From Nitrosopumilus piranensis (lineage in GTDB: Archaea; Thermoproteota; Nitrososphaeria; Nitrososphaerales; Nitrosopumilaceae), in contig NZ_CP010868.1 in NCBI RefSeq assembly GCF_000875775.1, positions 62,001-126,000 of the forward strand: a stretch of 64,000 bases of DNA, in the 5' to 3' direction. The notes under the pieces were generated by a model that saw nothing but the letters and a program-made list of their open reading frames with translations, did not search any database and was not told the origin of the DNA. Both the position numbers and the translations under genes were made by a program. This document shows positions 4,766 to 21,896 of this stretch, piece by piece. Position 1 is the first letter of the stretch. Each line of letters begins with the position of its first letter.

Positions 4766-4906
4766 AAAATGCCTTCCAAATTTTTATTCTTAAAGTTAAT
4801 GTTTGAACATAATCGTAGGTAGTTTTTTAAAAATAAAAAAATCATCTACATTCTAAAAATCTAATAATTAATTTTTAACACATTAGAAAAAATTTGCATT
4901 ATTTAT

Positions 4907-5875: not shown

Positions 5876-6012
5876 AAATAACGCAACTTTTACAGTTTTA
5901 TAAGTTTGTCTGACTTTAAAATTCTCAGTTAAGAAAGAAATTGATTTCTTAATTCTTAAAACAATTAAAAATAAAAAAATTTAAAAAATGAAATTATATG
6001 AAAATTAAAGAA

Positions 6013-6543: not shown

Positions 6544-8450
6544 TTTTTCAAATTCCGAATCTCAAGAGAGTTTTTTATCATTTCTTCTACCCAGGTTATG
6601 GATCTACCTTCATCAAGTATAGCATTTTTCCAATGTTCTAATCCTTGAGGATCAGGTTCTCTAAACAATATTTGATTATAAACTTCAGTAATTTGTTTTG
6701 TTGCTATTCCCTCAGGAGAAACCAATAATTCTTCTTTAACATCATCAATGGTTTTTGTATTATTTAGAATAATATTTTTTAAATGTTCTATCTCATTTTG
6801 AGAAGGTTCTCGTTTAAGTATTAATTCATATAAGTGGTTCAGTTCAGATTCAATTTGAAATTCATTAATTTGTGTATGAGATTGCATAATAAATAATATC
6901 AAAACAGAACAAAGTATTGAAAGTATAATTATTTTATAAAATATATTTGATTTATTCCAAAATTTTTTGGCATGATTGTATAATAAAAATAGAGTAAAAA
7001 GTGAAATTAAAACGGATACAAAAATCCAAAAGAAGGGGTTTTCGTTAGGCCAAATGTTAATAACATATCTTACGCCTACATCTGGAAATATTTCAGCCAT
7101 TCCAAAATATACTTGGTTTGCTATGTCTGCTCTACCATCTCTAAAAAAATGAGCATATATGGTTCTTGCAAAGATTAAATTGAAACTTACTCCAATGTAA
7201 GTTGAAAAAATTAATAATAAATGAAAAATTTTATTCCTCGAATATTTTTCCAACAATACTGCAAAAGGGAATATAGCCAAAGGTAAAATGGGTAGCATAT
7301 ATCTACTTGGAAGAGACCAACCAGCAGCATTTCCGATTAGAATACTATGACTAGTCAAAAACAATACAACAATACTTACAATAGAAATTGTTAATATTCT
7401 ATCTTTAGCCCAAAGAAATTTCAGACCAAAAAAAGATAAAAGAACTATTGGTGAAAATAAGAAAAGACCATAACTTTGCCCAAATAATAAATTACTTAAT
7501 CCAGAAAATGATTTTAAGATTAAACCATGAATACTATCTGAAATTCCTTGAATGAAAAAAACGTTATAATCACCTCCAAGACCTGGATCTCCGCCTTCTA
7601 CTGGAGCCCCAACTGAATGTAATAATAAAAATAGAGTAAAGAAAATTGAAAACATTCCAACTAACTGAAAAATTCTATTAAATTTTCTGTGTTGAATCAA
7701 AATCATTGCCATTACAGGCAATAGTATTAATGGAAAAATCAAAAATGGGATTTTAAAAAATGGCATGAAACCTAAGATGGCACCAATTAAAGAAATATGA
7801 AGAAATGTTTTTTCAGTTTTAAAAAATAAATAGATTGCAGTAAGTACAAAAAATCCAGTTAGTAAATCAGGATACATACGTGGAGAAAAAACTAATTCAA
7901 TCGTAGCAAAACTAAACAATAAAGTTCCAAGAAATGCAATATTTTTTTTCGTATAATTAAGTAAAATTTTATAATACAAGACACCTTGAAGTGCAAAAAT
8001 AATATTCATAGTAATCATGGAACCTAAAATACCACCTAAGAAGTATCCAGGTGCAATAATTATCGAAGAACCAGGTTGCAAAAAATAACAATGCCCATCT
8101 CTAGCAGTTAAAGAATGATGTAATCTACAGCTGTCAACAGCATAATAAAGATCAGGAAATAATAATTTTTCATCTTTATTTGGATCTTTATAAAAATCAT
8201 CTGGATGAAGTGAAAAATGTCGAGTTATTGTAGAAGCAGTTTGAAGATAAAATGGCTCATCTCCAGAAAATAGTGCAAATGATTTATGGATAATGCGTTC
8301 ATTACTGGTTTCCCAAGTAGAATATTGATATACAGTAATGGAAAAAGATACAAAAAAAACTATTAAAAAAATACTTAATTCAGTTTTTGTAATTGGACTA
8401 TTAGAGTAAATTTTTTGAATTAAGGAGTAAAAGGAGTTTTTCATAGACAT
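6540..8450 (-). CDS. GT-C family membrane glycosyltransferase with two C-terminal DUF4214-like repeats
   Basis: This 636-residue polytopic protein has about ten to twelve hydrophobic segments. Its first extracytoplasmic loop carries SGDEPFYLQTAS, matching the acidic catalytic loop of GT39/GT83-type enzymes that take sugar from a polyprenyl phosphate donor. After the last membrane segment (about 500-525) come two copies of a roughly 45-residue unit: LYELILKREPSQNEIEHL and YNQILFREPDPQGLEHW. These match the DUF4214 pattern seen in bacterial surface and extracellular proteins. The start is the ATG at 8450 (a second Met lies two codons on). It is coupled to the SRPBCC gene by a 4-nt overlap and follows the DegT aminotransferase by 6 nt. 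Transfer of a modified sugar to a lipid or protein at the cell surface is likely. Confidence 0.8.
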   Translation of the reverse strand: MSMKNSFYSLIQKIYSNSPITKTELSIFLIVFFVSFSITVYQYSTWETSNERIIHKSFALFSGDEPFYLQTASTITRHFSLHPDDFYKDPNKDEKLLFPDLYYAVDSCRLHHSLTARDGHCYFLQPGSSIIIAPGYFLGGILGSMITMNIIFALQGVLYYKILLNYTKKNIAFLGTLLFSFATIELVFSPRMYPDLLTGFFVLTAIYLFFKTEKTFLHISLIGAILGFMPFFKIPFLIFPLILLPVMAMILIQHRKFNRIFQLVGMFSIFFTLFLLLHSVGAPVEGGDPGLGGDYNVFFIQGISDSIHGLILKSFSGLSNLLFGQSYGLFLFSPIVLLSFFGLKFLWAKDRILTISIVSIVVLFLTSHSILIGNAAGWSLPSRYMLPILPLAIFPFAVLLEKYSRNKIFHLLLIFSTYIGVSFNLIFARTIYAHFFRDGRADIANQVYFGMAEIFPDVGVRYVINIWPNENPFFWIFVSVLISLFTLFLLYNHAKKFWNKSNIFYKIIILSILCSVLILFIMQSHTQINEFQIESELNHLYELILKREPSQNEIEHLKNIILNNTKTIDDVKEELLVSPEGIATKQITEVYNQILFREPDPQGLEHWKNAILDEGRSITWVEEMIKNSLEIRNLKN

Positions 8451-8456
8451 TTTTCA

Positions 8457-9566
8457 TCATTGTTCAAAAAACTCATTAATTTTCCGACATACATATCTCA
8501 ATTGAGATTTGGTGAGAGTAGTAGATGACGGTAAAAACAAACCTCGTTTAGAAATTGATGAAGATACTTTGAATAAATCATCTTTCATTTTATAAGGGGG
8601 AAGAGTATGAAGAGGTGGAAAAAAGGGCCTAGTTTGAATATTTTTTTGTTCAAGAAATTTCATAAGTTTTAATTTTAATTTTTCAGTTTTTAAAAGAATG
8701 TCTACAAACCAAATTGTTTGTTCTTTTAAATTCGTTTCAACAAATTCAATTTCAGGAATGTGTGACAAATGTTTTTTATAAAATTTGTATAGTTCTTTTT
8801 TCTTTTTTATATTTGAAGATAATTTATTCATTTGTGCAACTCCCATTGCAGCTTGGAATTCTGTAAATTTGAAATTATAACCTATAGTATCATGAACAAA
8901 CACCTTGTTCATTTTTTGTTTATCTTCAAAAGATCTTCCAAAATCTTTTAGGGTAAGCAATTTTTTATAAATATTTTTTTTATTTGTAATAACCATTCCT
9001 CCCTGACCAGTAGTAATTATTTTAGGTATGCTAAAAGAAAATGCTGCAACATCACTTTGAGTGCCAATATGATGTTTCCCATAATAAGATCCAATTGCAT
9101 GGGCAGCATCTTCAATCAAAAAAAGATTATTTTTCTTGGCAAATTTAGAAAGTTTGTTTATATTTATAGAACGACCATTGTGGGCTACAAGCATTACAGC
9201 TTTAGTTTTTTTGGTTATCAATTTCATCAGTTTATTAAAATCTAAATTCATAGCAATAGGCTCAATATCAACAAGTACAGGTTTTGCACCAGTCATCTCT
9301 ACTGCATTTGGAGATGCTACAAATGTTAAATCAGGCACAATAACTTCATCACCATATCCAATTCCTAATGATTTAAGTCCAAGATACAGAGCTACAGTTC
9401 CAGATGTAACAGCACAAGCATATTTTATCCCAATAAATTCAGTAAACATTTTTTCAAATTTTCTAGTTTTTTTTGCCTCAGTATACCAACCAGATTCAAT
9501 AACAGAAAGTAATTCTTGTTTTTCTTTAATGCCAATTGATGGTTCAATTTGGAAAATTTTTTTCAA
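8457..9566 (-). CDS. DegT/DnrJ/EryC1/StrS sugar aminotransferase
   Basis: These PLP enzymes transaminate a 3- or 4-keto nucleotide sugar to the amino sugar. The 369-residue protein has the family layout: VTSGTVALYLGLKSLG at the cofactor phosphate site, GDEVIVPDLTFVASPNAV, the Asp-containing IEDAAHAIGS, and FSFSIPKIITTGQGG with the Schiff-base Lys at about residue 182. The start is TTG at 9566. It is divergent from an SDR epimerase with only about 60 nt between them, and is followed by a membrane glycosyltransferase 6 nt downstream. Its product would be a natural substrate for the beta-helix acyltransferase at 12520-13071. Whether it acts at C3 or C4 is not decidable here. Confidence 0.9.
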   Translation of the reverse strand: MKKIFQIEPSIGIKEKQELLSVIESGWYTEAKKTRKFEKMFTEFIGIKYACAVTSGTVALYLGLKSLGIGYGDEVIVPDLTFVASPNAVEMTGAKPVLVDIEPIAMNLDFNKLMKLITKKTKAVMLVAHNGRSININKLSKFAKKNNLFLIEDAAHAIGSYYGKHHIGTQSDVAAFSFSIPKIITTGQGGMVITNKKNIYKKLLTLKDFGRSFEDKQKMNKVFVHDTIGYNFKFTEFQAAMGVAQMNKLSSNIKKKKELYKFYKKHLSHIPEIEFVETNLKEQTIWFVDILLKTEKLKLKLMKFLEQKNIQTRPFFPPLHTLPPYKMKDDLFKVSSSISKRGLFLPSSTTLTKSQLRYVCRKINEFFEQ

Positions 9567-9629
9567 AGTTTGAAATCAACTATTAAAAAATGGTACAGTT
9601 AATAAAGCTAATTTCAAAGTTTGAATGTA

Positions 9630-10625
9630 ATGAAAAATAATTTCATTTTAGTTACAGGTGGTGCAGGATATATTGGAAGTGTTCTTACAAGAAAACTAGT
9701 AGAAAAAGGATACAAAGTTAGAATTTTAGATTCACTTATTTATGGAAAACAAGGAATTGAAGAACTTATTGATAATAGTTCAGTTGAATTTATTAAAGGT
9801 GATATTCGTGATGAAAAAATTGTTAAAGAATCGATCAAAGGAATTGATTGTATAGTACATTTATCCGCAATTGTCGGAGAGCCATTATGTAAAAAAATTC
9901 CAGAAGCTGCAAAACAAATTAATGAATTAGCTACAAAAAAATTAATTGATTTAAGTAAGCTAGAGGGAGTGAAACGTTTCATTTTTTCGTCAACATGTAG
10001 CAATTATGGAACAAGTGATGGGATTGCAAATGAAGAAAGTGATTTACACTTTCTTAGTTTATATTCAGAATGTAAAGTACATTCAGAAAAATATATTTTA
10101 GATTCAAAAACTGACAATTTTGAAACTTGTGTATTAAGATTTGCCACAGCATTTGGATTATCACCTAGAATGAGATTTGATTTACTTTTACAAGAATTTA
10201 TTAGAGATGCTTTGGTTAACAAAGAAATAATTTTATTTGGTGCAAACTATTGGCGTCCACTAGTACATGTAAATGACATATCTAATGCATGTATTCTATC
10301 TATTAATGGAAAAACTGAAAAAATTTCAGGCCAAGTTTACAATGTAGGAGATGATTCTCAAAATTACACAAAACAAGATTTGGCAAAGATTATTCAAGAT
10401 AAAATACCCTCAACAAAAATTTCAATTGTAGAATCAAAAAAAGATCCAAGAAATTACCAAGTTTCATTTAAAAAAATTAAAGAACAATTAGGTTTTTCAA
10501 TAACAAAATCAGCAAAAGATGGAATTGACGAAATAATTAATGAAGTAAATAATAATAATTTAGATCCACAAGAGTCAGAATTTTCGAATATGTCCAAATT
10601 AACAGAGAAAGTTAATGTTTACTAG
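9630..10625 (+). CDS. NAD-dependent epimerase/dehydratase (extended SDR)
   Basis: This extended SDR (331 residues) acts on a nucleotide sugar. The NAD-binding motif is LVTGGAGYIGSVLTR, then VHLSAIVGEPLCKK. The active-site Ser/Thr lies in FSSTCSNYG, and the Tyr-x3-Lys pair is in YSECK. RPLVHVNDISNACILSI is the usual late substrate-loop motif of the GalE/RfbB relatives. I use the ATG at 9630; a TTG three codons upstream is also open. It heads a plus-strand run with a pentapeptide-repeat protein and a polysaccharide deacetylase. The specific reaction (C4 epimerase, 4,6-dehydratase or 4-reductase) is not clear. Confidence 0.8.
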   Translation: MKNNFILVTGGAGYIGSVLTRKLVEKGYKVRILDSLIYGKQGIEELIDNSSVEFIKGDIRDEKIVKESIKGIDCIVHLSAIVGEPLCKKIPEAAKQINELATKKLIDLSKLEGVKRFIFSSTCSNYGTSDGIANEESDLHFLSLYSECKVHSEKYILDSKTDNFETCVLRFATAFGLSPRMRFDLLLQEFIRDALVNKEIILFGANYWRPLVHVNDISNACILSINGKTEKISGQVYNVGDDSQNYTKQDLAKIIQDKIPSTKISIVESKKDPRNYQVSFKKIKEQLGFSITKSAKDGIDEIINEVNNNNLDPQESEFSNMSKLTEKVNVY

Positions 10626-10662
10626 TTTAATATAATAAAATATTTGTGATTAACAATATAAA

Positions 10663-11313
10663 TTGAAAAATAAATTGGTAAAATGGATGCTATATCCAAA
10701 ATTTAGTAAAGGTAGTTTAGTAATTTCTATAGTTTTAGTAATTGTATTAACAATAACAATTCCAGAATTATTAAGTCTAAATGAGATAGATAAAATATAT
10801 TTAGAAAATGAAATAAAATGTGATATTAATAAAATACAGAGTAATATAGAATATAATTCAAAAAAGAATTCTTATCTAAATTTAGATTATAGTAATTGCG
10901 ATTTTGAAGGTATAGTTATTAATAAAATTGATTTAGAATTTGGAAATATGAAATTTGCCAATTTAGAAAATGCTCAAATATCTAACGCTAATTTAAAAAA
11001 TACTAATTTCTTTCGTGCAAATTTATACAACGCAAATTTAGAGAATAGTGATTTAACAAATTCAAATCTAGAGCGAGTAAATATAGAAAATGCAAATTTG
11101 AAAAATTCAAAATTAAATGGAGCATATTTCTATGGAGTAAATTTCAATAATGTAACATTGTATAATGCTAGTTTCTATAAAGCACACTTAGCAGGTTCAA
11201 ATTTTACTAATGTTGATTTGAATGGTGTTAATTTTACAGATGCTATATTTTATGTTGAAAATTTGGGAGAGACAATTTTTAAAAACTGTACAGGTTTTGA
11301 AAGATGTGAATAA
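10663..11313 (+). CDS. Membrane-anchored pentapeptide-repeat protein
   Basis: The 216-residue protein has one N-terminal membrane anchor (about residues 18-36, rich in VISIVLVIVLTITI) and a short charged stretch. From about residue 85 it has a run of pentapeptide repeats of the A(N/D)Lxx type, for example ANLENAQISNANLKNTNF. Such repeats form a right-handed quadrilateral beta-helix. The repeat domain would face outward if the anchor is N-in. The start is TTG at 10663 or ATG at 10687. The stop is 2 nt before the start of the deacetylase, so it is operonic with surface-polysaccharide genes. It could scaffold an envelope glycan complex; no enzymatic motif is seen. Confidence 0.75.
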   Translation: MKNKLVKWMLYPKFSKGSLVISIVLVIVLTITIPELLSLNEIDKIYLENEIKCDINKIQSNIEYNSKKNSYLNLDYSNCDFEGIVINKIDLEFGNMKFANLENAQISNANLKNTNFFRANLYNANLENSDLTNSNLERVNIENANLKNSKLNGAYFYGVNFNNVTLYNASFYKAHLAGSNFTNVDLNGVNFTDAIFYVENLGETIFKNCTGFERCE

Positions 11314-11315
11314 TT

Positions 11316-12137
11316 TTGGTTAAAAATTTACTTTCTATTGACTTAGAAGATTATTTTTGTGATCTTCCATTCAATAAATGGAAAAAATATGATAGCAGGA
11401 TTGAAAAAACAACAGATAAAATTTTAGATTTGCTTGACAAATATAATCACCAAGCTACATTTTTTTCATTAGGATATATTGGAGAAAAATTTCCAGAGCT
11501 TATCGAAAAAATTATTAAAAAAGGACATGAAATTGCAAGCCACGGGTATTATCATAAAGATTTAAGGAAAATTTCAAAAGAAATTTTTGAAGAAGACTTG
11601 TTAAAATCCATTAAAACTTTAGAACAAATTTCTGGAGAAAAGATATTGGGTTTTAGAGCTCCATTTTTTTCAATTGATGAAAATAATTTTGAAGTATTTC
11701 ACATCATGAAAAAATATCTAAAATATGATTCTAGTGTTTTTCCAGTAAAAACTCCATTATATGGACTTCCAAATGCGCCAAGAAAAATTTACAAAATGAA
11801 TGTAGATAATCCACTAATAAAAAATGATGAAGGAGATTTTTTAGAGATTCCTTTAGCTACTATAAGAATACCAATTATTGGAAATATCCCCATTGCAGGA
11901 GGATTCCACTTGAGATTTTTACCAATTAAATTTTTGAAATTTGGAATAAATCATTTGAATAAAACAGGGAATGTAGCAATGTGTTACATTCATCCAAAAG
12001 ATCTTGATCCAAAAATGCCACATATTCCAGAATATGCCTGGCATTATTATTGGGGGCTAAATTCTGCTGCAAAGAAATTCGAGTATCTTTTAAAAAATTT
12101 CAAATTTTCATCTGTGCGAGATAGTGTCTCATTCTAA
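11316..12137 (+). CDS. Polysaccharide deacetylase (NodB domain)
   Basis: This CE4-type NodB-homology enzyme of 273 residues removes acetyl groups from sugars. The metal and catalytic residues are visible: the Asp-Glu-Asp of SIDLEDYF, ATFFSLGYIGEKFPELI, the His pair in HEIASHGYYHKDL, and GFRAPFF. The C-terminal GNVAMCYIHPKDLDP carries the late His. This arrangement matches the PuuE/DUF3473-associated deacetylases of exopolysaccharide clusters. There is no signal peptide, so it probably acts in the cytoplasm or on the inner face on a lipid-linked or nucleotide-linked sugar. The start is TTG at 11316. Its 3' end overlaps the convergent acpS gene by 9 bp. Confidence 0.85.
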   Translation: MVKNLLSIDLEDYFCDLPFNKWKKYDSRIEKTTDKILDLLDKYNHQATFFSLGYIGEKFPELIEKIIKKGHEIASHGYYHKDLRKISKEIFEEDLLKSIKTLEQISGEKILGFRAPFFSIDENNFEVFHIMKKYLKYDSSVFPVKTPLYGLPNAPRKIYKMNVDNPLIKNDEGDFLEIPLATIRIPIIGNIPIAGGFHLRFLPIKFLKFGINHLNKTGNVAMCYIHPKDLDPKMPHIPEYAWHYYWGLNSAAKKFEYLLKNFKFSSVRDSVSF

Positions 12138-12485
12138 TTCATTAATTGGAAATAATACAAATGCTGTGGCAAATTTGTTAGTATGAGATAATGAAACAGA
12201 TGCATTATGAGAAAAAGGTAATTTCAATACAGGTTTAGAATTATTCATTTGAACTTCTATTTCAAAAAGATTTAATTTTTTTTTATCAACTGCTTTAATT
12301 GTTGCTTCTTTTGCACAAAACCTTGCAGCAAAATGAGGATAAGGATTAGATTTTTTCATACAATATTTGATTTCTTCAGGTGAAAATATTTTTTCATAAA
12401 ATGATTTTTTTTGTTCATAAGGCATGTTAGAAAATCGGGTGACTTCTTCAATATCTATTCCAATATTAAAAATTCTAGATTTCAT
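12129..12485 (-). CDS. acpS: Holo-[acyl-carrier-protein] synthase (4'-phosphopantetheinyl transferase)
   Basis: AcpS moves the 4'-phosphopantetheine arm of CoA onto the serine of an acyl carrier protein. The protein (118 residues, the usual AcpS size) has NIGIDIEEVTRF at the N-terminus with the metal-binding Asp, FAARFCAKEATIKA in the centre with the metal-binding Glu, and VSLSHTNKFATAFV at the end. I start it at the ATG at 12485; a longer open frame reaches 12602 but its extra residues look like random hydrophobic sequence and overlap the beta-helix gene. It lies 34 nt downstream of that acyltransferase. It is 670 nt from the acyl carrier protein gene, its obvious partner. AcpS and ACP together are unusual in archaea. 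Confidence 0.88.
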   Translation of the reverse strand: MKSRIFNIGIDIEEVTRFSNMPYEQKKSFYEKIFSPEEIKYCMKKSNPYPHFAARFCAKEATIKAVDKKKLNLFEIEVQMNNSKPVLKLPFSHNASVSLSHTNKFATAFVLFPINELE

Positions 12486-12519
12486 ACAAAAATGAAATAC
12501 AAATCTCTTTAATAATATT

Positions 12520-13071
12520 TCAAGATATTTTTTTAACAACTCTTGCAGGATTGCCAACAACAACACAATTATCAGGAACATCTGATGCAACCACACTACC
12601 AACAGCTGTTACAGAATTTTTTCCAATAGTTACATTATTAGTAATTATGGTACCTGGCATAATCATTGCTCCGGATTTTATAGTAACATTACCTACTTTT
12701 CTAGGGTATATTTTATGAAGATGATTATTTGCACTCATGTTAGAATGGGCAAAAATCATAACATTACTACCAATTGATACATTGTCACCAATCGTAACAA
12801 GATGAGGATACAATAAATCAATTAAAACATAAGGAGACATATGACATTGTTTTCCTATTTTAACTCCTCTTACACGTTGCATTGAGATAGAAAAGTTTGG
12901 AATGGGAGACGAATATGCAAAGTAATGAAATATCCAAGATTTAAGAAATCGCAATCTAACTTTAATTCTGCCCCAAGTGCCAGAATAACCATAGTCTTTC
13001 ATTAATTCTTGTTCTGCAATTCTAAAATTATCATCAGGTTGCAATGTTACTTCAACAATGAATTTCAACAT
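12520..13071 (-). CDS. Left-handed beta-helix (hexapeptide repeat) acyltransferase
   Basis: This 183-residue O- or N-acyltransferase is of the LacA/WbbJ/PglD superfamily. An N-terminal region of about 70 residues is followed by hexapeptide repeats that form the beta-helix, for example VKIGKQ, VTIGDNVSIGSNVMI, VTIKSGAMIMPGTII and VTIGKNSVTAVGSVV. It ends with the family signature VVVGNPARVVKKI. The His in MIFAHSN is the likely catalytic base. It is divergent from the acyl carrier protein operon (83 nt apart) and precedes acpS on the same strand. This context suggests that the acyl donor may be an acyl-ACP rather than acetyl-CoA, and that the acceptor is a sugar amine or hydroxyl. Both points are inference. 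Confidence 0.85.
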   Translation of the reverse strand: MLKFIVEVTLQPDDNFRIAEQELMKDYGYSGTWGRIKVRLRFLKSWIFHYFAYSSPIPNFSISMQRVRGVKIGKQCHMSPYVLIDLLYPHLVTIGDNVSIGSNVMIFAHSNMSANNHLHKIYPRKVGNVTIKSGAMIMPGTIITNNVTIGKNSVTAVGSVVASDVPDNCVVVGNPARVVKKIS

Positions 13072-13154
13072 ATGATTATAATACTTATGGAGAAAAAATT
13101 TATTTATCTTATTTAGAGTAAACGCTAAATTTGTTGCTTTTTTATATGAATTAA

Positions 13155-13394
13155 ATGTCTAAAAAACTCTTTGAAATCATAGCACATGTTATGTCAATTC
13201 CAGTTTCAGAAATTAACGACAAATCAGGTCCAGATACAATAGAATCATGGGATTCTTTTAATGGATTAGTATTATTAGATGAACTAGAAAGTACATTTGG
13301 TGTTAAATTTTCTTTAGAAGAGATTACAGATGTAAAAACAGTTGAGGACATTAAAAAACATCTAGTAAATCATGGAGTTAATTTAGATGAATGA
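13155..13394 (+). CDS. Acyl carrier protein
   Basis: The protein is a small acidic four-helix carrier of 79 residues. The attachment serine is Ser34 in ESWDSFNGLVLLDELE, where the canonical motif is DSL; helix II follows with the typical acidic face. A late KTVEDIKKHLVNHG segment corresponds to helix IV. It carries acyl groups as thioesters once AcpS (12129-12485) has added the phosphopantetheine arm. The next gene, a MaoC-type hydratase, starts 8 nt before its stop, so the two are translationally coupled. The divergence from DSL to DSF is common in stand-alone carriers of secondary metabolism. Archaea generally make membrane lipids without ACP, so a glycan or secondary role is more likely than fatty acid synthesis. 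Confidence 0.9.
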   Translation: MSKKLFEIIAHVMSIPVSEINDKSGPDTIESWDSFNGLVLLDELESTFGVKFSLEEITDVKTVEDIKKHLVNHGVNLDE

Positions 13395-13815
13395 TGAAAT
13401 AACGGTTTTAGATTTTTCTCAAATAAAAATTGGAATGGAAAAAAAATTTAGAATAGTGGTGACAGAGTATATGTTAGAAAGTTTTGCAAATTTATCAGGA
13501 GATTATAATCCATTACATATGAATGAAAACTATGCAACAAATACATCTTTTAGAAAACGCATATGTCATGGGATGTTATTATCTTCGTTTCTTTCAAGAT
13601 TAGTAGGAATGTATCTTCCAGGTCAAAATGCATTATACATATCCCAATCTCTAAAATTCCATTCACCCTGTTTTGTTAATGATAAAATTACCATAATAGG
13701 CAAGGTAGTTTCAAAAAGTGAATCTACACACATTATTACATTAAAAACTATAATTGTAAATGAATCTGGAAATTGTTTGGTAGATGGAGAAGCAAAAGTT
13801 TTGTTGAGGGAATAA
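13387..13815 (+). CDS. MaoC-like (R)-specific enoyl thioester hydratase
   Basis: This single hot-dog domain protein of 142 residues hydrates an enoyl thioester to the 3-hydroxyacyl thioester, or the reverse. The signature is FANLSGDYNPLHMNENYA, with the catalytic Asp39 and His44, followed by FRKRICHGMLLSSFLSRLVG. All catalytic residues are present. It overlaps the carrier protein gene by 8 nt and is followed 3 nt later by a FabG-like reductase. That order suggests interconversion of 3-oxo-, 3-hydroxy- and enoyl-acyl groups on the carrier. No ketosynthase is seen in the window, so chain extension is not implied. CoA substrates from central carbon metabolism remain possible. Confidence 0.87.
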   Translation: MNDEITVLDFSQIKIGMEKKFRIVVTEYMLESFANLSGDYNPLHMNENYATNTSFRKRICHGMLLSSFLSRLVGMYLPGQNALYISQSLKFHSPCFVNDKITIIGKVVSKSESTHIITLKTIIVNESGNCLVDGEAKVLLRE

Positions 13816-13818
13816 CAA

Positions 13819-14562
13819 TTGTTGAAAAATAAACGAGTTCTAATAACTGGTGCAAATGGTGGAATAGGTTCATCTATTACAAAAGCAATATTAGAAAACC
13901 AAGGAAAAGTGATTTTATTTTATCATAAAAATAAAGATCAAATTGATAAAATAATAGAAGATAATCTAGGACAAAAAACCAATATAGAGATATATCAAGT
14001 GGATTTATCAAAAAAGGAAGAAATTACTAATGTGTTATCTAAAACAATAAAGAATGGAATTGATATTTTTATTCATGCAGTAACATTGCCTATATCTCAT
14101 AATAAAATTCAAAATATTGATTGGAATGAATATCAAAAAAACATAGATTTACAGACTAAATCATTCTTTGAAATTACAAGAATATTAATTCCCACAATGA
14201 AAGAAAAGAAAAGATCAAGGATTATTAGTATTTTATCATCATATACTATAGGAACACCACCTAAGAGTATCAGTCCATATGTTGTTGGCAAATACTCATT
14301 ATTGGGTTTAGTAAAATGTATGGCAACAGAATTAGCACCCACTGGAATTACGGTGAATTGTATTTCACCTTCAATGACAAACACTCCTTTAATTGACAAA
14401 TTTCCCAAAAAACTAATAGAAATAAATGCTGTTCAAAATCCTCTTGGTAGAATATTAGAACCTTCAGACATTCTTTCAACAATATTATTTCTATGCGAAG
14501 ATAATTCAGACTTCATAACAGGTCAAAATATCATTATTAGTGGTGGAGAAATAATGTATTGA
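13819..14562 (+). CDS. SDR-family 3-oxoacyl-thioester reductase (FabG-like)
   Basis: This is a classical short-chain dehydrogenase of 247 residues. It has the cofactor motif ITGANGGIGSSI, an active Ser in SILSSY (about residue 140), Tyr154 and Lys158 in YVVGKYS, and the FabG-like VNCISPSMTNTPL and late FITGQNIIISGGE. The usual NNAG strand is replaced by IHAVTLP, a change seen in diverged members. The start is TTG at 13819 (a second TTG follows); no ATG fits. It follows the MaoC gene by 3 nt in the carrier operon. Reduction of 3-oxoacyl-ACP to (R)-3-hydroxyacyl-ACP is the likely reaction; a sugar substrate cannot be excluded. Confidence 0.82.
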   Translation: MLKNKRVLITGANGGIGSSITKAILENQGKVILFYHKNKDQIDKIIEDNLGQKTNIEIYQVDLSKKEEITNVLSKTIKNGIDIFIHAVTLPISHNKIQNIDWNEYQKNIDLQTKSFFEITRILIPTMKEKKRSRIISILSSYTIGTPPKSISPYVVGKYSLLGLVKCMATELAPTGITVNCISPSMTNTPLIDKFPKKLIEINAVQNPLGRILEPSDILSTILFLCEDNSDFITGQNIIISGGEIMY

Positions 14563-14619
14563 TTTTCTTAAAAAAAAGTATTAAAAGAAATTTTGAAGGG
14601 AAAAAGATTAACGTAAATA

Positions 14620-16401
14620 GTGAGAAATAGTAGCTGTTATAAAATGAATGAAGATAATCTAAGTTACTATATTAAAAAATCAAAACAGATTCAAAGAATT
14701 CATTCAGAACAGAGTAAAAAAATTGCTCTTCTGGGAAATTTCACTTTGAATGGGTTAAAAGAAGTGTTAGATGTTTTATCATATGAAAAAAAACTAGATC
14801 TGAAAATTTATGATTCACCATACGCACAATTTAAACAAGAAATAGTAAACCAGGACAGTAAATGGCATAGTTTCAGACCAGATCTTACTTTTTTAATTTT
14901 AGATTTTGATGCATTAGTAGGAGATACAAGATTCGAGTATTATTCATGGAATGAAGAAAAGCGAAAACAACTAATCAATAAAACATGCGATGAATTTGAA
15001 AACTTTTTAGTAAATGCACTAAATTCTCAAAATGGAAAAATCATAGTATCAAATTTTATTGTTCCTGATTTTTCACCATTTGGGATTTATGATTGTAAAG
15101 TAAAGTACTCGTTAAGAGATTTCGTTAATGCTTTAAATCAAACTATTAAAAAAAATGTAGAGAATTATCCATCTTTATATTCTATGGAATTTGATTTATT
15201 TTTCTTAAAATTTGGTGAAAAAAACCTTAAAGATCAAAAATTAAGATTTTTAGCTGACATCATAATATCTCCATCACATATACCAGATCTTGCAAAGAAA
15301 ATTATGGGATACATAAAACCACTATTTGGATTAACAAAAAAATGTCTTGTTTTAGATTTAGACAATACATTATGGGGAGGAATTTTGGGAGAAGATGGAT
15401 TAAATAATATTTTGCTAGATGAAAAAGCTCCTGGAAATGCATTTTTAGAATTTCAAAAGGTTATTCTTCAATTATACAATAGAGGGATAATTTTAGCAAT
15501 TAATAGTAAAAATAATTATTTAGATGTCAAGGAAGTTTTTAAAAAACATCCTAAAATGCTACTAAAAGAAAAAAATTTTGCAGATATTCAAATTAATTGG
15601 AATGATAAAGCATCTAACATGATTGAAATATCAAAAAATTTGAACATTGGAACAGATTCTTTTGTTTTTTGGGATGATGATCCAGTAAATAGAGAATTAA
15701 TAAGAAGCCAATGCCCAGAAATTACAGTTATAGATGTTCCAAAAGATCCAGCTCAATTTGCCAATACATTAAGGGAAACAGATGAATTTAACTCCTATAA
15801 CATAACTTTAGAGGATTCTCAAAAAGGTAAGATGTATGCAGAACAAAATTTGAGAAAAAAAGATCAAAAAAAATTTTCTAATTTAGATGAATTTTTGACT
15901 AGTTTACAAATGAAAATAAAAATAAAAAAAGCTGACAAATTTACAATTCCAAGAATATCTCAGCTAATTATGAAAACGAATCAATTTAATTTAACTACAA
16001 AAAGATATTTTCCAGAAGAAGTAGAAAAAATGGTTAACAGTAAAAATTATTTAGTTAAAACATTTTCTGTACAGGATAAATTTGGAGATAATGGTTTAAC
16101 AGGTTTATATATTGTAAATAAGGAAGAACCAAAAAAATGGAAGATAGACACATTTCTTATGAGTTGCAGAATAATGGGTAGAAATATTGAGAGAGTAATG
16201 ATGTCAGATTTAATAAATGAAGCAATAAAAGAAAGAGTTGAAAATATTTCAGGAGAATATATTTCTACAAAAAAAAATGAAGTGACAAGAGATCTGTATG
16301 ATAAATTAGGTTTTTCAAAACTAAATGAAAATACGTATGAATTAAAAAACCTGAAAAAAAATATCATAGATGTAGACAATATAGAAATTTCTAAAAATTA
16401 A
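14620..16401 (+). CDS. FkbH-like protein (HAD-IIIC phosphatase with GNAT domain)
   Basis: FkbH proteins take a three-carbon phosphate such as 1,3-bisphosphoglycerate, remove the phosphate and load the glyceryl unit on a carrier protein. The 593-residue protein has the family order. First comes an N-terminal SGNH-like region (about 35-220, starting KIALLGNFTLNG). Then a HAD domain has nucleophile motif CLVLDLDNTLWGG (Asp246, Asp248), an SKNN motif II and FVFWDDDPVNRE as motif IV. A C-terminal GNAT-like domain spans about 430-580 (MGRNIERVMMSDLINEA). The start is GTG at 14620 or ATG at 14644. It follows the ACP/MaoC/SDR genes by 57 nt and fits as the carrier-loading enzyme. Confidence 0.87.
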   Translation: MRNSSCYKMNEDNLSYYIKKSKQIQRIHSEQSKKIALLGNFTLNGLKEVLDVLSYEKKLDLKIYDSPYAQFKQEIVNQDSKWHSFRPDLTFLILDFDALVGDTRFEYYSWNEEKRKQLINKTCDEFENFLVNALNSQNGKIIVSNFIVPDFSPFGIYDCKVKYSLRDFVNALNQTIKKNVENYPSLYSMEFDLFFLKFGEKNLKDQKLRFLADIIISPSHIPDLAKKIMGYIKPLFGLTKKCLVLDLDNTLWGGILGEDGLNNILLDEKAPGNAFLEFQKVILQLYNRGIILAINSKNNYLDVKEVFKKHPKMLLKEKNFADIQINWNDKASNMIEISKNLNIGTDSFVFWDDDPVNRELIRSQCPEITVIDVPKDPAQFANTLRETDEFNSYNITLEDSQKGKMYAEQNLRKKDQKKFSNLDEFLTSLQMKIKIKKADKFTIPRISQLIMKTNQFNLTTKRYFPEEVEKMVNSKNYLVKTFSVQDKFGDNGLTGLYIVNKEEPKKWKIDTFLMSCRIMGRNIERVMMSDLINEAIKERVENISGEYISTKKNEVTRDLYDKLGFSKLNENTYELKNLKKNIIDVDNIEISKN

Positions 16402-16472
16402 TCTTAAATATCATATATATGACAAAATTTGAAGTGAGAACAATTTTAAGTTTCATTTTTACGTAAAATGTA

Positions 16473-17507
16473 ATGAGTAAAACAGTGTTGATTACAGGAA
16501 TTACAGGGCAAGATGGAGCATATCTTGCAAGATTTCTTTTAAGAAAAAACTATAAAGTTTTTGGTTCATATAGAAGATTATCCACACCAAACTTTTGGAG
16601 ATTACATTACTTAGGAATATTTGATAAAATTAAATTTCTTTCATGTGACGTTACAGATTCTAGATCAATCTCTGAATGCATACAAGAATCTAACCCTGAT
16701 GAAATTTTTCATTTAGCTGCACAAAGTTTTGTAGGGGCTTCCTTTCATCAACCATTATACACTACAGACATTACAGGTCTTGGCACAGTTAGAATGTTAG
16801 ATGAAATAAAAAGATCAAATAAAAAAATTAAATTTTATCAAGCATCTTCAAGTGAAATGTATGGAAGTGAGTCTTCTAAAATTAAAAATGAGTTAACAGA
16901 ATTTCATCCATCAAGTCCATATGCAATTGCAAAATTATATGCACACTGGACCGTGAATTTATACAGAAAAGCATATGGAGTACATGCAACATCCGGAATT
17001 TTGTTTAATCATGAATCATCCTTAAGAGGATTAGAATTTGTAACTAGAAAAATTTCTAATGGAATTGCAAAAATTTCTCTGGGGCTATCAAAAGAACTAA
17101 CATTAGGAAATGTTTCAGCACAAAGAGATTGGGGATACGCACCAGAATATATAGAAGGTATGTGGATGATGTTACAACAAAAAAATCCAGATGATTATGT
17201 TTTAGCTACAAATGAAGTGCATTCAGTAAAAGAATTTGTCCAAGAAGCTTGTAAAATTGCTGGAGTCCCATGTAAAAAAATCCAAATTTCAGAAACAAAT
17301 TTGAGGCCATTTGATCTTCAGTATTTATGTGGAGATTATTCTAAAGCAAAGAAAAAATTAGGTTGGAAACCAAAAACAAAGTTTAAAAAATTAGTTAAAT
17401 TAATGGTTGAGGAAGATATATCAAGGTGGGAAAGGTGGTTAAAGAAAGAATATTTTCCATGGGATGCAGCAACATCAGGAGAGGATTCAAAAATAATTAA
17501 TTCTTGA
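16473..17507 (+). CDS. gmd: GDP-mannose 4,6-dehydratase
   Basis: GMD converts GDP-mannose to GDP-4-keto-6-deoxymannose, the precursor of GDP-fucose, rhamnose and perosamine. The 344-residue protein carries LITGITGQDGAYLARFLL at the NADP site, DEIFHLAAQSFVGASFHQP, the SSSEMYG loop, and the YAIAK pair (Tyr150, Lys154). It also has FNHESSLRGLEFVTRKI, where the family usually has NHESPRRG, and RDWGYAPEYIEGMWMMLQ. A TATA-like element centred near 16447 lies about 26 nt upstream of the ATG, so the message may be leaderless. The 3' end overlaps the convergent GT2 gene by 11 bp. The mannose isomerase at 18400-19425 could feed it. Confidence 0.9.
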   Translation: MSKTVLITGITGQDGAYLARFLLRKNYKVFGSYRRLSTPNFWRLHYLGIFDKIKFLSCDVTDSRSISECIQESNPDEIFHLAAQSFVGASFHQPLYTTDITGLGTVRMLDEIKRSNKKIKFYQASSSEMYGSESSKIKNELTEFHPSSPYAIAKLYAHWTVNLYRKAYGVHATSGILFNHESSLRGLEFVTRKISNGIAKISLGLSKELTLGNVSAQRDWGYAPEYIEGMWMMLQQKNPDDYVLATNEVHSVKEFVQEACKIAGVPCKKIQISETNLRPFDLQYLCGDYSKAKKKLGWKPKTKFKKLVKLMVEEDISRWERWLKKEYFPWDAATSGEDSKIINS

Positions 17508-18369
17508 TTTTAATTTTACTTATTCCATATAATACAACAGACATTAGAAGAAGCATCGTCCCTATCATCATAGAGCCAATAGCAGAAACAAGAAGTGGAA
17601 TAGGAAAAAATCTTACTTCATTAAAAAAAGATATAGACCAAATTAGAAACCCAACTCCAATAATTAACAATAGCATTCCAGGAATTCCCAGATATTTTAG
17701 AGGATGAGAAATTGCAATGGATTCTATTAAAGATGTTATTACCTCACTAATATGCGAAATAGGATCTTTAGTAGAAGTTTTTTCACCAGTATTGTAACTA
17801 ACGGTTACACCAACTTCAACAATATTTAATTTCTTTCTAGATGCATCAATTAAAATTTCTGAATCAGCACCAAACCCATTTGTCCTAAAAGAAATGACAG
17901 AAACCGCTTTTTTTGAATAAGAACGAAATCCACTTTGAGTATCTCTAAAAGGTAATTCAGATGCTAAGTTAGTCATAGAATCTAAAAATTTGTTACCAAA
18001 TTTCCTATATGAAGGCATTTCATCTTTATTTGAACGAAATCCAATTACAATATCCACTCTTTCATTAATTATGGGAGAAATCAATTTAGGAATTTCTTTT
18101 GGAGAAAACTGTCCGTCACCGTCAATAGTTATCATTACATCAAAGTTTTCATTTTTTGCAAAATCAAATAGAGTTCTCATAGCTGCCCCCTTACCAAAAT
18201 TTTTTTCATGTTCAATTACTGTGGCTCCTGCTTTTTTTGCTTCTGTAGATGTATTATCATTAGAGCCATCATCACAAACAATTACACGATCAACATATTG
18301 AAGTATATTTTTTACCAGTGTTCTAATTATCTTCCCCTCATTAAATGCAGGAATACACGCAATAATCAT
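17497..18369 (-). CDS. GT2 polyprenyl-phosphate sugar transferase (DPM1/GtrB-like) with two C-terminal membrane segments
   Basis: This GT-A family 2 enzyme of 290 residues transfers a sugar from a nucleotide to polyprenyl (dolichyl) phosphate. It starts with CIPAFNEGKIIRTLV and then CDDGSNDNT. Next come the DxD-type ITIDGDGQFSPKEIPKL, the RSNKDEMPSYRKFGNKF arginine loop and FRDTQSGFRSYSK. The last 80 residues hold two hydrophobic hairpins, as in GtrB-type proteins, anchoring it to the cytoplasmic face of the membrane. The product would supply donors for GT-C enzymes such as those at 6540 and 20685. It is separated by 30 nt from the isomerase upstream on the same strand. Confidence 0.88.
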   Translation of the reverse strand: MIIACIPAFNEGKIIRTLVKNILQYVDRVIVCDDGSNDNTSTEAKKAGATVIEHEKNFGKGAAMRTLFDFAKNENFDVMITIDGDGQFSPKEIPKLISPIINERVDIVIGFRSNKDEMPSYRKFGNKFLDSMTNLASELPFRDTQSGFRSYSKKAVSVISFRTNGFGADSEILIDASRKKLNIVEVGVTVSYNTGEKTSTKDPISHISEVITSLIESIAISHPLKYLGIPGMLLLIIGVGFLIWSISFFNEVRFFPIPLLVSAIGSMMIGTMLLLMSVVLYGISKIKIKN

Positions 18370-18399
18370 AATAATAGAATTTTTAACCTAGTCTAAAAA

Positions 18400-19425
18400 C
18401 TATTCTAGATTAGAATCAAGATGATTTTTTACAAAATCAATAGATTTGATAGTAGAAGGGTCTATTCCAGAATAGATGGCTTTGTAAATTGTGGCATAAT
18501 CAAGTCTATAAATTAAATCCATCAATTTTGATAATATATTACCATTAACTGAAAATACTTCAAAATACTCAATTTTATTTTCATTAAAGTATTTTTTTAA
18601 GATTTGCCAACGTTCTTTAGTTTTAGAATAATCATTGTTACCTTGAATAAGTATAGGTCGAAGTGATGATGATTTTTCCCATGCTACAATTCCATTATGA
18701 CAAGACTCGATAACATCTTCAATAATTACATGAGATTTTGCATTTTCCTGTAATGAAGATTTGAATCTGATTGCTGCAGCCTGTAATCCATGTGGATAAT
18801 AAATTAACGGAATGTTTGTAATCCATTGAGACAATAAAAGTGAAGGATTTGTTTCTGTAAGATTTTCAGAGTTTATTAATTTTTGAGTATTTTCCAACAC
18901 AGATATGGATTCATCAATATCATTTTCAGTAATTGGTAAAAACGGTTTTAAAATTTTAAGCAATGAATAAACATATGTAACAAAAGATGATCTGGGAGAA
19001 TGCATTTTTTTAATCATATGAAATTCTAGATTATGCTTTTTACAAAATTCCTGCATTTTACCACCTGATGAAAATGCAATAAGATTACAGTGAAGTTCTC
19101 TTGCGGTTTTTAAAACATTTAGCGTCTCAACAGTGTTCCCAGATATGCTTATTGTAATTACTAGAGTTTTAGAGTTTACTGTTTTTGGTAGTAGATATCC
19201 TTTAACCAAAGTTATATGAATATCATTTTTTGAAAAAATTGAATAGAAAAGATTCCCTATTGCACCAGAGCCACCCATACCTGCAATCACAATATGATCA
19301 ATATCAGAAAAGGAAGTTACATCCAAGTCTGAAGAGTATGCATCTTTTGCCAATTTTGGCCATTGGTCATAGATTTTATGCATACCCGAAGGATCAAATT
19401 TTTCTAAATCAAATTTAGTAAGCAT
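18400..19425 (-). CDS. Bifunctional phosphoglucose/phosphomannose isomerase
   Basis: This archaeal PGI/PMI of 341 residues interconverts glucose 6-phosphate, fructose 6-phosphate and mannose 6-phosphate. Two SIS domains are visible: HIVIAGMGGSGAIGNLF with VKGYLLPKTV and ISISGNTVETLNVL in the first, and a second half with RFKSSLQENAKSHVIIED. The SPRSSFVTYVYSLLKIL segment corresponds to the family's PRAALGYLF loop with the catalytic Arg. It belongs with the surrounding sugar genes as the link from central metabolism to GDP-mannose. It precedes the polyprenyl-phosphate transferase on the same strand with a 30-nt gap. Length matches the family. Confidence 0.9.
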   Translation of the reverse strand: MLTKFDLEKFDPSGMHKIYDQWPKLAKDAYSSDLDVTSFSDIDHIVIAGMGGSGAIGNLFYSIFSKNDIHITLVKGYLLPKTVNSKTLVITISISGNTVETLNVLKTARELHCNLIAFSSGGKMQEFCKKHNLEFHMIKKMHSPRSSFVTYVYSLLKILKPFLPITENDIDESISVLENTQKLINSENLTETNPSLLLSQWITNIPLIYYPHGLQAAAIRFKSSLQENAKSHVIIEDVIESCHNGIVAWEKSSSLRPILIQGNNDYSKTKERWQILKKYFNENKIEYFEVFSVNGNILSKLMDLIYRLDYATIYKAIYSGIDPSTIKSIDFVKNHLDSNLE

Positions 19426-19509
19426 ACTAAAATAAAATCAATTCAAATCAATATAATTATTATCAAATCAACGACATGCTATTATGAAACTAGATTAAAA
19501 GTCAAAATA

Positions 19510-20682
19510 TTGAATATTTTACTACTCTCTCAATTCTTCTCAATTACAAAAGGAGGTGGAGAATATGTCTTCAAATTAATGGCAAAAAATCTCACAGAAA
19601 ATGGCCATAAAGTATGGGTAATTACAAACAAAGTGAAAGGCGAAACATATCCAAACTTAGCTAACCTTAAAATTATCATGGTCAATCCAACGCTAGAATA
19701 TAAAGGAGGACTGCCACCAACTTTTTTAGACAATATTAGATATGTCATCAATACATTTCAAGCGGGGAAAAAAATCATTAAAGAACAAAACATCGATATT
19801 ATTCATTCAAATAATTTTTCGCCGTCACTTGCGGGTTCACTAATGTCATACTTTACAAAAAAACCACACATCATAACAATTTTTGACATTTTCTCTCAAA
19901 ATGATAAAGACTTTTGGAGAAAATGGATAAAGCAGGTAAAAGTTTCAAAAATTAATGCAATATTAGTACCATGGTTTGAAAAAATTCTTATAAAAACAAG
20001 ATATGATGCAATCTACACAATTAGTGATGCATCCAAAAACGATATCCTCAAGATGAATACAAAAAAACCAATATACAACATTCCACCAAGCATAGAAGAT
20101 ACAGTTCAGTTAAATGAAAAAATAATTCCATTCCAATTCATATGTATTAGCAGATTGGTATTTTACAAGAATTTAGAAATAATAATTAACGCAATGTCAG
20201 TTGTAGTAAAATCAATTCCACAATGTAAAGTAATCATAATTGGAGATGGTCCACATAAAGAATCATTACAAATACTAATTAAAAACTTAGAATTAGAAAA
20301 GAACATTATATTCAAAGGATATACAACATCGGCTGAAAAAATGAAATTAATTTCAGAATCAAACGCAATGCTATTTCCAAGTATTTTAGAAGGATTTGGT
20401 TTAGTTATTTTAGAAGCATTTTCTCAGAGTAAACCAGTATTAGTATCAGATATTCCTCCAATGTCAGATATTATTATTCACAATGAGACAGGTTTTGTTC
20501 TTGATGAAAATAATTACAAAATATGGGCAGAACACATTACAAAGTTAATTAAAAATCCACAATTATCCAAAAAAATGGGAGAGAATGGTAACAATCTACT
20601 TAAGATAAAATACAATCGAAAACAATTCTATGATAAATTAATTAAAATGTATAATGATATAGCTAGCGATTTAGGAGAATAG
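19510..20682 (+). CDS. GT4 family glycosyltransferase
   Basis: This retaining GT-B glycosyltransferase has 390 residues. The N-terminal acceptor domain opens LLLSQFFSITKGGGEYVFKL with the glycine-rich GT4 loop. The donor domain carries ICISRLVFYKNLEIIINAM, KVIIIGDGPHKESLQIL, IIFKGYT and the E-x7-E motif FPSILEGFGLVILEAFSQS. No membrane segment is seen; it should act on a lipid-linked acceptor at the inner membrane face. The start is TTG at 19510. A GT-C-like membrane protein starts 2 nt after its stop, so they form a two-gene unit. Confidence 0.88.
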   Translation: MNILLLSQFFSITKGGGEYVFKLMAKNLTENGHKVWVITNKVKGETYPNLANLKIIMVNPTLEYKGGLPPTFLDNIRYVINTFQAGKKIIKEQNIDIIHSNNFSPSLAGSLMSYFTKKPHIITIFDIFSQNDKDFWRKWIKQVKVSKINAILVPWFEKILIKTRYDAIYTISDASKNDILKMNTKKPIYNIPPSIEDTVQLNEKIIPFQFICISRLVFYKNLEIIINAMSVVVKSIPQCKVIIIGDGPHKESLQILIKNLELEKNIIFKGYTTSAEKMKLISESNAMLFPSILEGFGLVILEAFSQSKPVLVSDIPPMSDIIIHNETGFVLDENNYKIWAEHITKLIKNPQLSKKMGENGNNLLKIKYNRKQFYDKLIKMYNDIASDLGE

Positions 20683-20684
20683 TA

Positions 20685-21896
20685 TTGATTATTCAAAATA
20701 ATAAGATCATCATTTGGACAGTATTTGTATTTTCAATTAGCATAGTTTTGATTAGTTTTGTTTCAGTAATATTTCCAGCTTTGATCCCACTATCAAATAC
20801 AATAGATATTCCAGGAATAGAATCAGTAACACCAAATCCATATGAGATGGGAGTATGGTCAGGAGTAATAATTATTTCAAATATTATAATTTTTGGTCTA
20901 CTATTTTTGTATTTTAAAAATAAATTACCTAAACCAATTTCATATGAATTAAAAAGATTATTTGCATTTGAAATTTCAAAGAAGAACACATTAATCATCT
21001 TAATTATTTTATTTGGAATATACATTTCTACAAGTGCATCAGAAATATTACAAGAAGAAGAGTATAGTGATTTTATAAAGATTAAAGAAGTATTACAGTA
21101 TTGGTCTATTGAGAGAATTAATTCATTTGAACCACATGTGAATTATTTTTTATTATCAACATCAATGGCTATTTTTGGAAGTTATAAAGTAATTCCATTT
21201 TTCGGAAGTTTAGGATTATTGGTTACAACTTTTTTTATTACTTATACTATCACACAAAAAAGATTTGCAGGAATAATATCAACTATAATATTAATGCAAA
21301 GCAATTTGTTTTTGACATATGATACATCAGCCACATATACAAATTTTTGGATACTTTTTTATTTATTGTCACTATTTTTTGTTTATAGATCTTGGCCACT
21401 TTCACCAGTATCATATTTAATTTCCATTCCGTCGAAAATTTTAACCATCATGTTTTTTCCAATGTCAATTTATTTTATTTTACGGTCAGATATTTCAAAA
21501 AATAAGAAAACTATTGTAATTTCAACAATCTTGGCAGTTGTAATTATAGGTGGGATTATTGGATCAGGTATAGGTTCTGCTCAACGAAATGAAGTAACAG
21601 AAGAAAAATTTAGTTCTAAAGAGATGTTGATGGGATTTTCATCTTTTGCAACACAATTAAGATTTGATGGATTAGTTTTATTATTTATGATTCCATTAAT
21701 TGTTGGATTATTTATTGTTTCAAAAAACGGAATCAAACATGGAGAATCCATGATGTTGCTAATTGCAGGTTTACTTCTAATTGCACCAATTATTACAGGT
21801 TTTACAAATCAGACAAACCAGCCATACAGATTTGTGCCATTAGTAGTATTTTTTGCAATAGGTGTCGGAGTACTATTGTCTAAGAGACAGGTCTGA
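20685..21896 (+). CDS. Polytopic membrane protein, probable GT-C type glycosyltransferase
   Basis: This 403-residue protein has about nine to ten hydrophobic segments. The first loop after a membrane segment contains EEEYSDFIKIKEVLQYW and then FEPHVNYFLLSTSMAIFG, a layout like the acidic catalytic loop and the following helix of GT-C enzymes. The middle alternates short loops with TM helices, including SQRN-like polar turns. I do not recognise a named family. The start is TTG at 20685, 2 nt after the GT4 stop. Its 3' end overlaps the convergent secreted-protein gene by 17 bp. Transfer of sugars from polyprenyl phosphate at the outer face is the best guess. Confidence 0.6.
   Translation: MIIQNNKIIIWTVFVFSISIVLISFVSVIFPALIPLSNTIDIPGIESVTPNPYEMGVWSGVIIISNIIIFGLLFLYFKNKLPKPISYELKRLFAFEISKKNTLIILIILFGIYISTSASEILQEEEYSDFIKIKEVLQYWSIERINSFEPHVNYFLLSTSMAIFGSYKVIPFFGSLGLLVTTFFITYTITQKRFAGIISTIILMQSNLFLTYDTSATYTNFWILFYLLSLFFVYRSWPLSPVSYLISIPSKILTIMFFPMSIYFILRSDISKNKKTIVISTILAVVIIGGIIGSGIGSAQRNEVTEEKFSSKEMLMGFSSFATQLRFDGLVLLFMIPLIVGLFIVSKNGIKHGESMMLLIAGLLLIAPIITGFTNQTNQPYRFVPLVVFFAIGVGVLLSKRQV

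Follow-up and report, generated by a model that had tools for sequence, protein, structure and literature searches.

We analysed a stretch of 64,000 nucleotides, hereafter the window, which corresponds to positions 62001-126000 of a complete 1.71 Mb Nitrosopumilus-like genome and carries a six-gene acyl carrier protein (ACP) cassette within a region of surface-glycan genes. On balance, we favour the interpretation that this cassette is a dedicated carrier-protein module that acylates an amino sugar of a surface glycan. What is directly observed is the gene content, the intact motifs, the co-conservation of the genes and a genome without ketosynthase.

The cassette is organized as two divergent units separated by 83 nt (13072-13154), a stretch that is a probable shared promoter region for both. 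The minus-strand pair encodes an AcpS-type 4'-phosphopantetheinyl transferase (12129-12485; PF01648, 60.4 bits against a cut-off of 25), whose homologues begin MKSRIFNIGID, and a left-handed beta-helix (LbH, hexapeptide) acyltransferase with a FAH(S/N)NP-type motif (12520-13071; PF00132, 41.1 bits against 27). The plus-strand run encodes a 79-aa ACP with its attachment residue Ser34 in WDSF (13155-13394; PF00550, 27.1 bits against 20.8), a MaoC-type (R)-hydratase/dehydratase with an intact GDxNPxH motif (13387-13815; PF01575, 71.3 bits against 27), a FabG-like short-chain dehydrogenase/reductase (SDR) in which YxxxK is present (13819-14562; PF13561, 142.9 bits against 27), and an FkbH protein composed of FkbH_N, HAD and GNAT-like C-terminal domains (14620-16401). 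The latter scores 306.9 bits with TIGR01686, about double the NCBIfam cut-off of 146.65, and its FkbH_N domain (PF21211) reaches 61.8 bits against 27; its true start is likely the ATG at 14644. The HAD motifs DLDNT, INSKNN and DDDPVN and the C-terminal SCRIMGR (SCRxMGRxxE) are present, and the predicted structure matches the HAD structure 3slr and GNAT folds. The LbH model is a left-handed beta-helix (pLDDT 90.6) that lies near maltose/galactoside O-acetyltransferases, with the N-acyltransferase AntD among its top 50 neighbours.

All six frames are open with their catalytic motifs intact. The six genes had been named at these positions in the original prediction, and each product exceeds its family cut-off; the 8-nt overlap of ACP and MaoC (13387-13394) and the 3-nt gap between MaoC and SDR (13816-13818) were likewise given exactly. 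For AcpS, its presence stands but the start called there has to be corrected. The open frame reaches a TTG at 12602, yet the conserved sequence, where homologues start, begins with MKSRIFNIGIDIEEV at 12485; AcpS therefore does not overlap LbH, from which it is separated by 34 nt, and the apparent overlap is an artefact of the upstream TTG. The AcpS motifs GIDIEEV and ARFCAKEA are intact, and the protein falls slightly below the TIGR00516 equivalog cut-off (57.6 bits against 59.8).

Across the whole genome, we detected one AcpS (PF01648) and one ACP (PF00550), so that, at these thresholds, no 4'-phosphopantetheine carrier system other than the cassette was found. Genome-wide searches gave no match for ketoacyl synthase III (KAS III, PF08541), for MBOAT (PF03062) or for ketoacyl synthase (PF00109), the enzyme by which type II fatty acid synthesis would be recognized. 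A fatty-acid or polyketide role is ruled out by the lack of both synthases, and the earlier statement that no ketosynthase is present and that this is not a fatty acid pathway holds for the entire genome. As with most archaea, this ammonia oxidiser does not produce fatty acids of the bacterial type. The same absence bears on a small natural-product or polyketide-like pathway of the tetronate or methoxymalonate type, located by chance in a glycan region. Such pathways are typified by FkbH with a free-standing ACP, and tetronate (glycerate-utilisation) and methoxymalonyl-ACP operons, e.g. mad7/mad8, are likewise expected to form glyceryl-S-ACP first (PMC7489565). However, the genome lacks a FabH-like condensing enzyme or polyketide synthase, the cassette contains neither an FkbG-type methyltransferase nor the paired dehydrogenases, its conserved neighbours are sugar genes, and it brings its own AcpS, MaoC and LbH within a glycan locus. 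We therefore regard such a pathway as highly improbable, the least credible of the explanations considered.

Conservation of the cassette in Nitrosopumilaceae

A family sample of 200 Nitrosopumilaceae genomes yielded 28 intact FkbH loci, the window included (G and L denote genomes and loci of the comparison set, respectively). FkbH exceeded its cut-off in 29 of the 200 genomes and PF01648 matched in 37; this first, loose PF01648 scan did not pick up AcpS in at least three others (G066, G181 and G048), where it was seen in the loci themselves. Roughly one fifth of the family holds the carrier kit, in interchangeable versions.

Within the intact loci, LbH is present in all 28, ACP in 27 (the 28th reaches a contig end) and a polysaccharide deacetylase (PDA) in 26, while AcpS lies within 3.5 kb of FkbH in 26. 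The proposed check of ACP, AcpS and FkbH co-occurrence thus gave a positive answer. LbH adjoins FkbH divergently in 25 loci, PDA is the immediate same-strand neighbour of LbH in 25 (spacing -49 to 67 nt), and AcpS has an adjoining GT2 gene in 19; a DegT-family aminotransferase is found in only 15, at a distance of 2.7-8 kb. The gene order in relatives is FkbH-ACP-(MaoC or VOC)-AcpS. Chance is ruled out by the retention of the cassette in the 28 intact loci, and the sequence comparison supports the carrier cassette, the FkbH loader, the LbH acyltransferase and the surface-glycan setting that had been proposed.

Two decayed copies were also observed. In L080 (G124, a genome of the same genus), FkbH is split into three pieces and a stop interrupts AcpS, and in L091 (G081) several stops disrupt FkbH. 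These copies, together with a patchy distribution and the long branch of the window FkbH, could indicate a horizontal-transfer remnant without function in this strain. The six open frames, the intact catalytic motifs and the tight packing retained in the window argue otherwise, and we consider this explanation very unlikely. Separately, a contig labelled Nitrospina sp. SP265 (L116) has a Nitrosopelagicus-like cassette that falls within the archaeal clade, and is probably misbinned.

The glycan region (4900-21900) has a GC content of 0.277 and the cassette 0.267, compared with 0.324 for 22346-64000, which is consistent with a variable island. Other products encoded in the window include an 833-aa fusion of an Epimerase_2-like half and a GT4 half (2264-4765, minus strand) and a 636-aa membrane protein with a DUF4214 domain at its C-terminus (6540-8450, minus strand).

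Proposed loading and editing of the carrier-bound group

From the predicted enzyme functions, we infer a substrate and an order of steps. AcpS would convert apo-ACP into holo-ACP at Ser34, and FkbH, the predicted loader, would remove the phosphate from a C3 phospho-acid (1,3-bisphosphoglycerate is the likeliest) and pass the glyceryl group to ACP. MaoC could then dehydrate glyceryl-ACP (a 2,3-dihydroxypropionyl thioester) to the enol form of a pyruvoyl-type thioester, which SDR may reduce to lactyl-ACP; this would be the simplest route employing both enzymes. No precedent in a bryostatin loading module for turning glyceryl into lactyl was found in the open-access PMC literature. Finally, LbH would acylate a sugar amine, either exposed by a cytoplasmic PDA or made via a GDP-mannose 4,6-dehydratase-like protein (Gmd) and DegT, before export into the glycan.

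The comparison of loci reveals a regularity at the presumed editing step. In the 27 loci with ACP, the slot after it is occupied by MaoC in 19 and by a VOC protein in eight, and by both in none. The best profile of the VOC protein is methylmalonyl-CoA epimerase (79 bits, under the cut-off of 114.95), and in these loci it could invert C2 of the glyceryl or lactyl group, by analogy with the action of related epimerases on methylmalonyl. When 42 MaoC and 21 VOC rows are placed on the FkbH tree, at least four changes between the two occur within the Nitrosopumilaceae clade and at least ten overall. SDR is rare, being present in the Nitrosopumilaceae set only in the window and L077 (plus the decayed L080) and elsewhere in seven MaoC loci. 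It accompanies MaoC and is found in none of the VOC loci, which fits an order of MaoC followed by SDR. Minimal archaeal versions with neither MaoC nor VOC (L128, L130, L133 and L181-L183) suggest that glyceryl, the primary FkbH product, is usable unmodified.

These observations also bear on a different carrier-bound group, namely (R)-3-hydroxybutyryl or another 3-hydroxyacyl derived from acetoacetyl- or crotonyl-CoA of the 3-hydroxypropionate/4-hydroxybutyrate (3HP/4HB) cycle, where MaoC would hydrate, SDR would reduce and the GNAT part of FkbH would move the acyl group from CoA to ACP. This is the usual chemistry of MaoC and FabG-like SDR enzymes, 3-hydroxybutyryl amino sugars occur on flagellin through the viosamine island, with its ACP, SDR, LbH and DegT counterparts (PMC3927599), and AntD, a structural neighbour of the window LbH, was crystallised with 3-hydroxybutyryl-CoA. 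Nevertheless, the strictly conserved HAD motifs of FkbH imply a phosphorylated substrate, 3-hydroxybutyryl-CoA could reach LbH directly without any ACP, SDR is missing from most relatives and MaoC from some, and the KAS III of the viosamine island is absent from this genome. We consider a 3-hydroxyacyl group unlikely, although it is the strongest competitor of the glyceryl-derived route.

Loaders vary as well. Six AcpS loci without FkbH (G030, G086, G093, G084, G168 and G128) combine an AMP ligase (PF00501) with LbH, and most of them contain a second ACP type; the AMP ligase of some relatives matches TIGR03098 at 220 bits, under the cut-off of 592. In another Nitrosopumilaceae locus (L084:3829-8527, G097), AMP-binding, PP-binding and hexapeptide domains are united in one protein of 1339 aa, and an Sfp-like transferase comes next; judging from its domains, the 1339-aa protein is a fused loader, carrier and acyltransferase. 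In addition, some relatives (L096, L079, L082 and L072) have a DltB-like MBOAT protein (150.8 bits) together with a DltD/SGNH-like partner in or near the cassette.

This variation of loaders, editors and MBOAT across loci presents AcpS and LbH as a chassis with changing loaders and editors. More tentatively, and as a possibility we hold at well below even chances, AcpS, ACP and LbH, often with PDA, may form a chassis whose sole use in ammonia-oxidising archaea is the acylation of surface glycans; its loader could be exchanged (FkbH, AMP ligase or the fused protein), and the FkbH product would have two mutually exclusive editors, MaoC (with or without SDR, leading from glyceryl through pyruvoyl to lactyl) or VOC (inversion at C2). 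If this were true, two alternative edits of glyceryl-ACP, common to archaea and bacteria, would constitute an undescribed route to surface-sugar diversity. The MaoC/VOC exclusivity and the swapping of loaders are the new observations of this work.

Candidate acceptors and comparison with known systems

Two candidate routes to the amine acceptor are encoded in the window. The first involves PDA (11316-12137, plus strand), which carries DUF3473 and no obvious signal peptide, is convergent with AcpS with a 9-nt overlap of their 3' ends, and has TIGR03006 (XrtA polysaccharide deacetylase) as its top profile (222 bits, under the cut-off of 276.2). Directly upstream of it lies a gene for a pentapeptide-repeat protein with a membrane-like N-terminal segment (10663-11313, plus strand). 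The second involves DegT (8457-9566, minus strand; PF01041, 337 bits) and Gmd, encoded directly downstream of FkbH (16473-17507, plus strand), which is a possible source of a 4-keto sugar; relatives contribute RmlA and RmlB, both over their NCBIfam cut-offs, and FdtA to this route.

In the Raetz pathway (LpxC-LpxD) and in Nod factor synthesis (NodB-NodA-NodF), an amino sugar is deacetylated and then N-acylated from acyl-ACP, and LpxD is itself an LbH protein. By analogy, PDA followed by LbH would constitute a deacetylate-reacylate scheme like LpxC-LpxD or NodB-NodA; the window differs in that its PDA is not LpxC, its LbH is not LpxD, and no fatty acyl chain is involved. PDA and DegT are about equally likely as the source of the acceptor, PDA being slightly favoured in archaea. 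The original idea that the acyl group is moved to an amino sugar made by DegT is largely upheld as regards acylation, while DegT becomes just one of two candidates (present in 15 of 28 loci, against 25 of 28 for the PDA-LbH pair).

ACP-dependent N-acylation of surface sugars is already known in bacteria. The viosamine island of P. syringae (vioA, vioB, vioR, vioS and acp) supplies an N-hydroxyacyl amino sugar for flagellin (PMC3927599) and resembles the window in its ACP, FabG-like reductase/SDR, sugar N-acyltransferase (VioB, compared with LbH, here a candidate N-acyltransferase) and sugar aminotransferase (VioA, compared with DegT). Unlike the window genome, it builds its acyl chain with a KAS III (VioS), and no FkbH, MaoC, AcpS or PDA is listed there. 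Similarly, clostridial modules (L144, L145, L149 and L151) contain the same MaoC-SDR-FkbH-ACP set with LbH nearby and DegT in some; for instance, L149 combines it with DegT, a PglD-type LbH and a glycosyltransferase. They differ in having no AcpS beside them and an FkbH only distantly related to that of the window. Other bacterial FkbH-ACP pairs, likewise found among glycan genes, occur with an aminoglycoside-N-acetyltransferase family protein (L131 and L139), with FliS in the L131 locus, and the L145 locus contains MotB. A glyceric-acid group is known on a flagellin sugar, so such groups do occur on surface glycans (PMC3068675). There is also a likeness to exosortase A (XrtA) exopolysaccharide clusters, since PDA is nearest to TIGR03006 and the AMP ligase of relatives to TIGR03098, both below cut-offs.

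An alternative is that ACP feeds O-acylation of a glycan or membrane acceptor in a Dlt/MBOAT-like manner. The DltB-like MBOAT and DltD/SGNH-like partner of some relatives would accommodate this, as would the structural neighbours of LbH, which are mainly O-acetyltransferases. However, LbH is present in every intact locus and MBOAT in few, the proximity of PDA or DegT points to an amine as the acceptor, and the DltB-like MBOAT expected for Dlt-type D-alanylation is missing from the window genome, where an MBOAT/Dlt role is accordingly ruled out. Taken together, O-acylation appears improbable, and N-acylation is the mode we infer.

Several points weigh against acylation of an amino sugar by this module. 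The claim for the archaeal members draws on sequences and models. The modelled LbH fold separates neither N- from O-transfer nor ACP from CoA as donor, and its neighbours are mostly CoA-dependent O-acetyltransferases. The action of MaoC on glyceryl-ACP is a prediction, and a VOC protein in the MaoC slot shows that the editing chemistry is poorly understood. The window cassette is rearranged (ACP-MaoC-SDR-FkbH, with PDA outside the LbH unit), its FkbH is a long branch of uncertain tree position, and L075 and L076 have no PDA nearby.

Origin of the module and its significance

The wider sample comprised 398 Thermoproteota genomes and a genome-collection scan reaching other archaea and bacteria. 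Among the former, FkbH over the cut-off is confined to Nitrosopumilaceae and family f14 (G209, G491 and G523); the scan adds FkbH in metagenome-assembled genomes of Nitrososphaerales and in Woesearchaeota, the candidate phyla radiation (CPR), Omnitrophota, Clostridia, Bacteroidota and others. Outside the family, AcpS adjoins FkbH-ACP in Woesearchaeota, Nitrososphaerales, CPR and Omnitrophota, and in mainstream bacterial phyla none of 36 FkbH loci has AcpS within 3.5 kb. A simple reading would be that a dedicated AcpS is superfluous in hosts that have a housekeeping one and travels with the module in hosts that do not.

Nitrosopumilaceae FkbH proteins, including that of the window, form one clade in an 89-row tree (SH-aLRT 95), and this grouping is not rejected with a mixture model on 30 rows (p = 0.62). 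Nitrososphaerales appear in two places of the FkbH tree and f14 in a third. For a single archaeal FkbH origin, the approximately unbiased (AU) test on 30 rows gave p = 0.031 with LG+G4 and p = 0.083 with the mixture model, and these sequence comparisons neither favour nor firmly reject a single thaumarchaeal origin.

Archaea have been described as lacking ACP machinery save for a few transfers, and rare archaeal ACP and AcpS acquired by transfer were noted in 2012 (PMC3533463). The statement that archaea generally lack ACP is a fair one, given that PF01648 matches in 39 of the 398 Thermoproteota genomes, but archaea also possess another, distinct ACP/AcpS system. In other Thermoproteota families (L199-L216 and L222), AcpS lies near a sugar-nucleotidyltransferase-like protein of about 400 aa (PF13562) in 15 of 24 AcpS loci; ACP was detected in 10 of these 15, and two of the three PF13562 proteins tested gave a weak hexapeptide match. 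Within the open-access PMC literature, we found no work on archaeal FkbH or Nitrosopumilus ACP that treats the present cassette; four papers mentioning both FkbH and archaea deal, judging by their titles, with natural products of bacteria.

These findings place AcpS and ACP in widespread marine and soil archaea outside fatty-acid synthesis, and having an ACP is therefore not equivalent to making fatty acids. The exclusivity of MaoC and VOC provides a testable handle on the FkbH-ACP chemistry of surface glycans, bacteria included. Furthermore, if these abundant ammonia oxidisers display acylated sugars on their surface, this would matter for their recognition by viruses and grazers.

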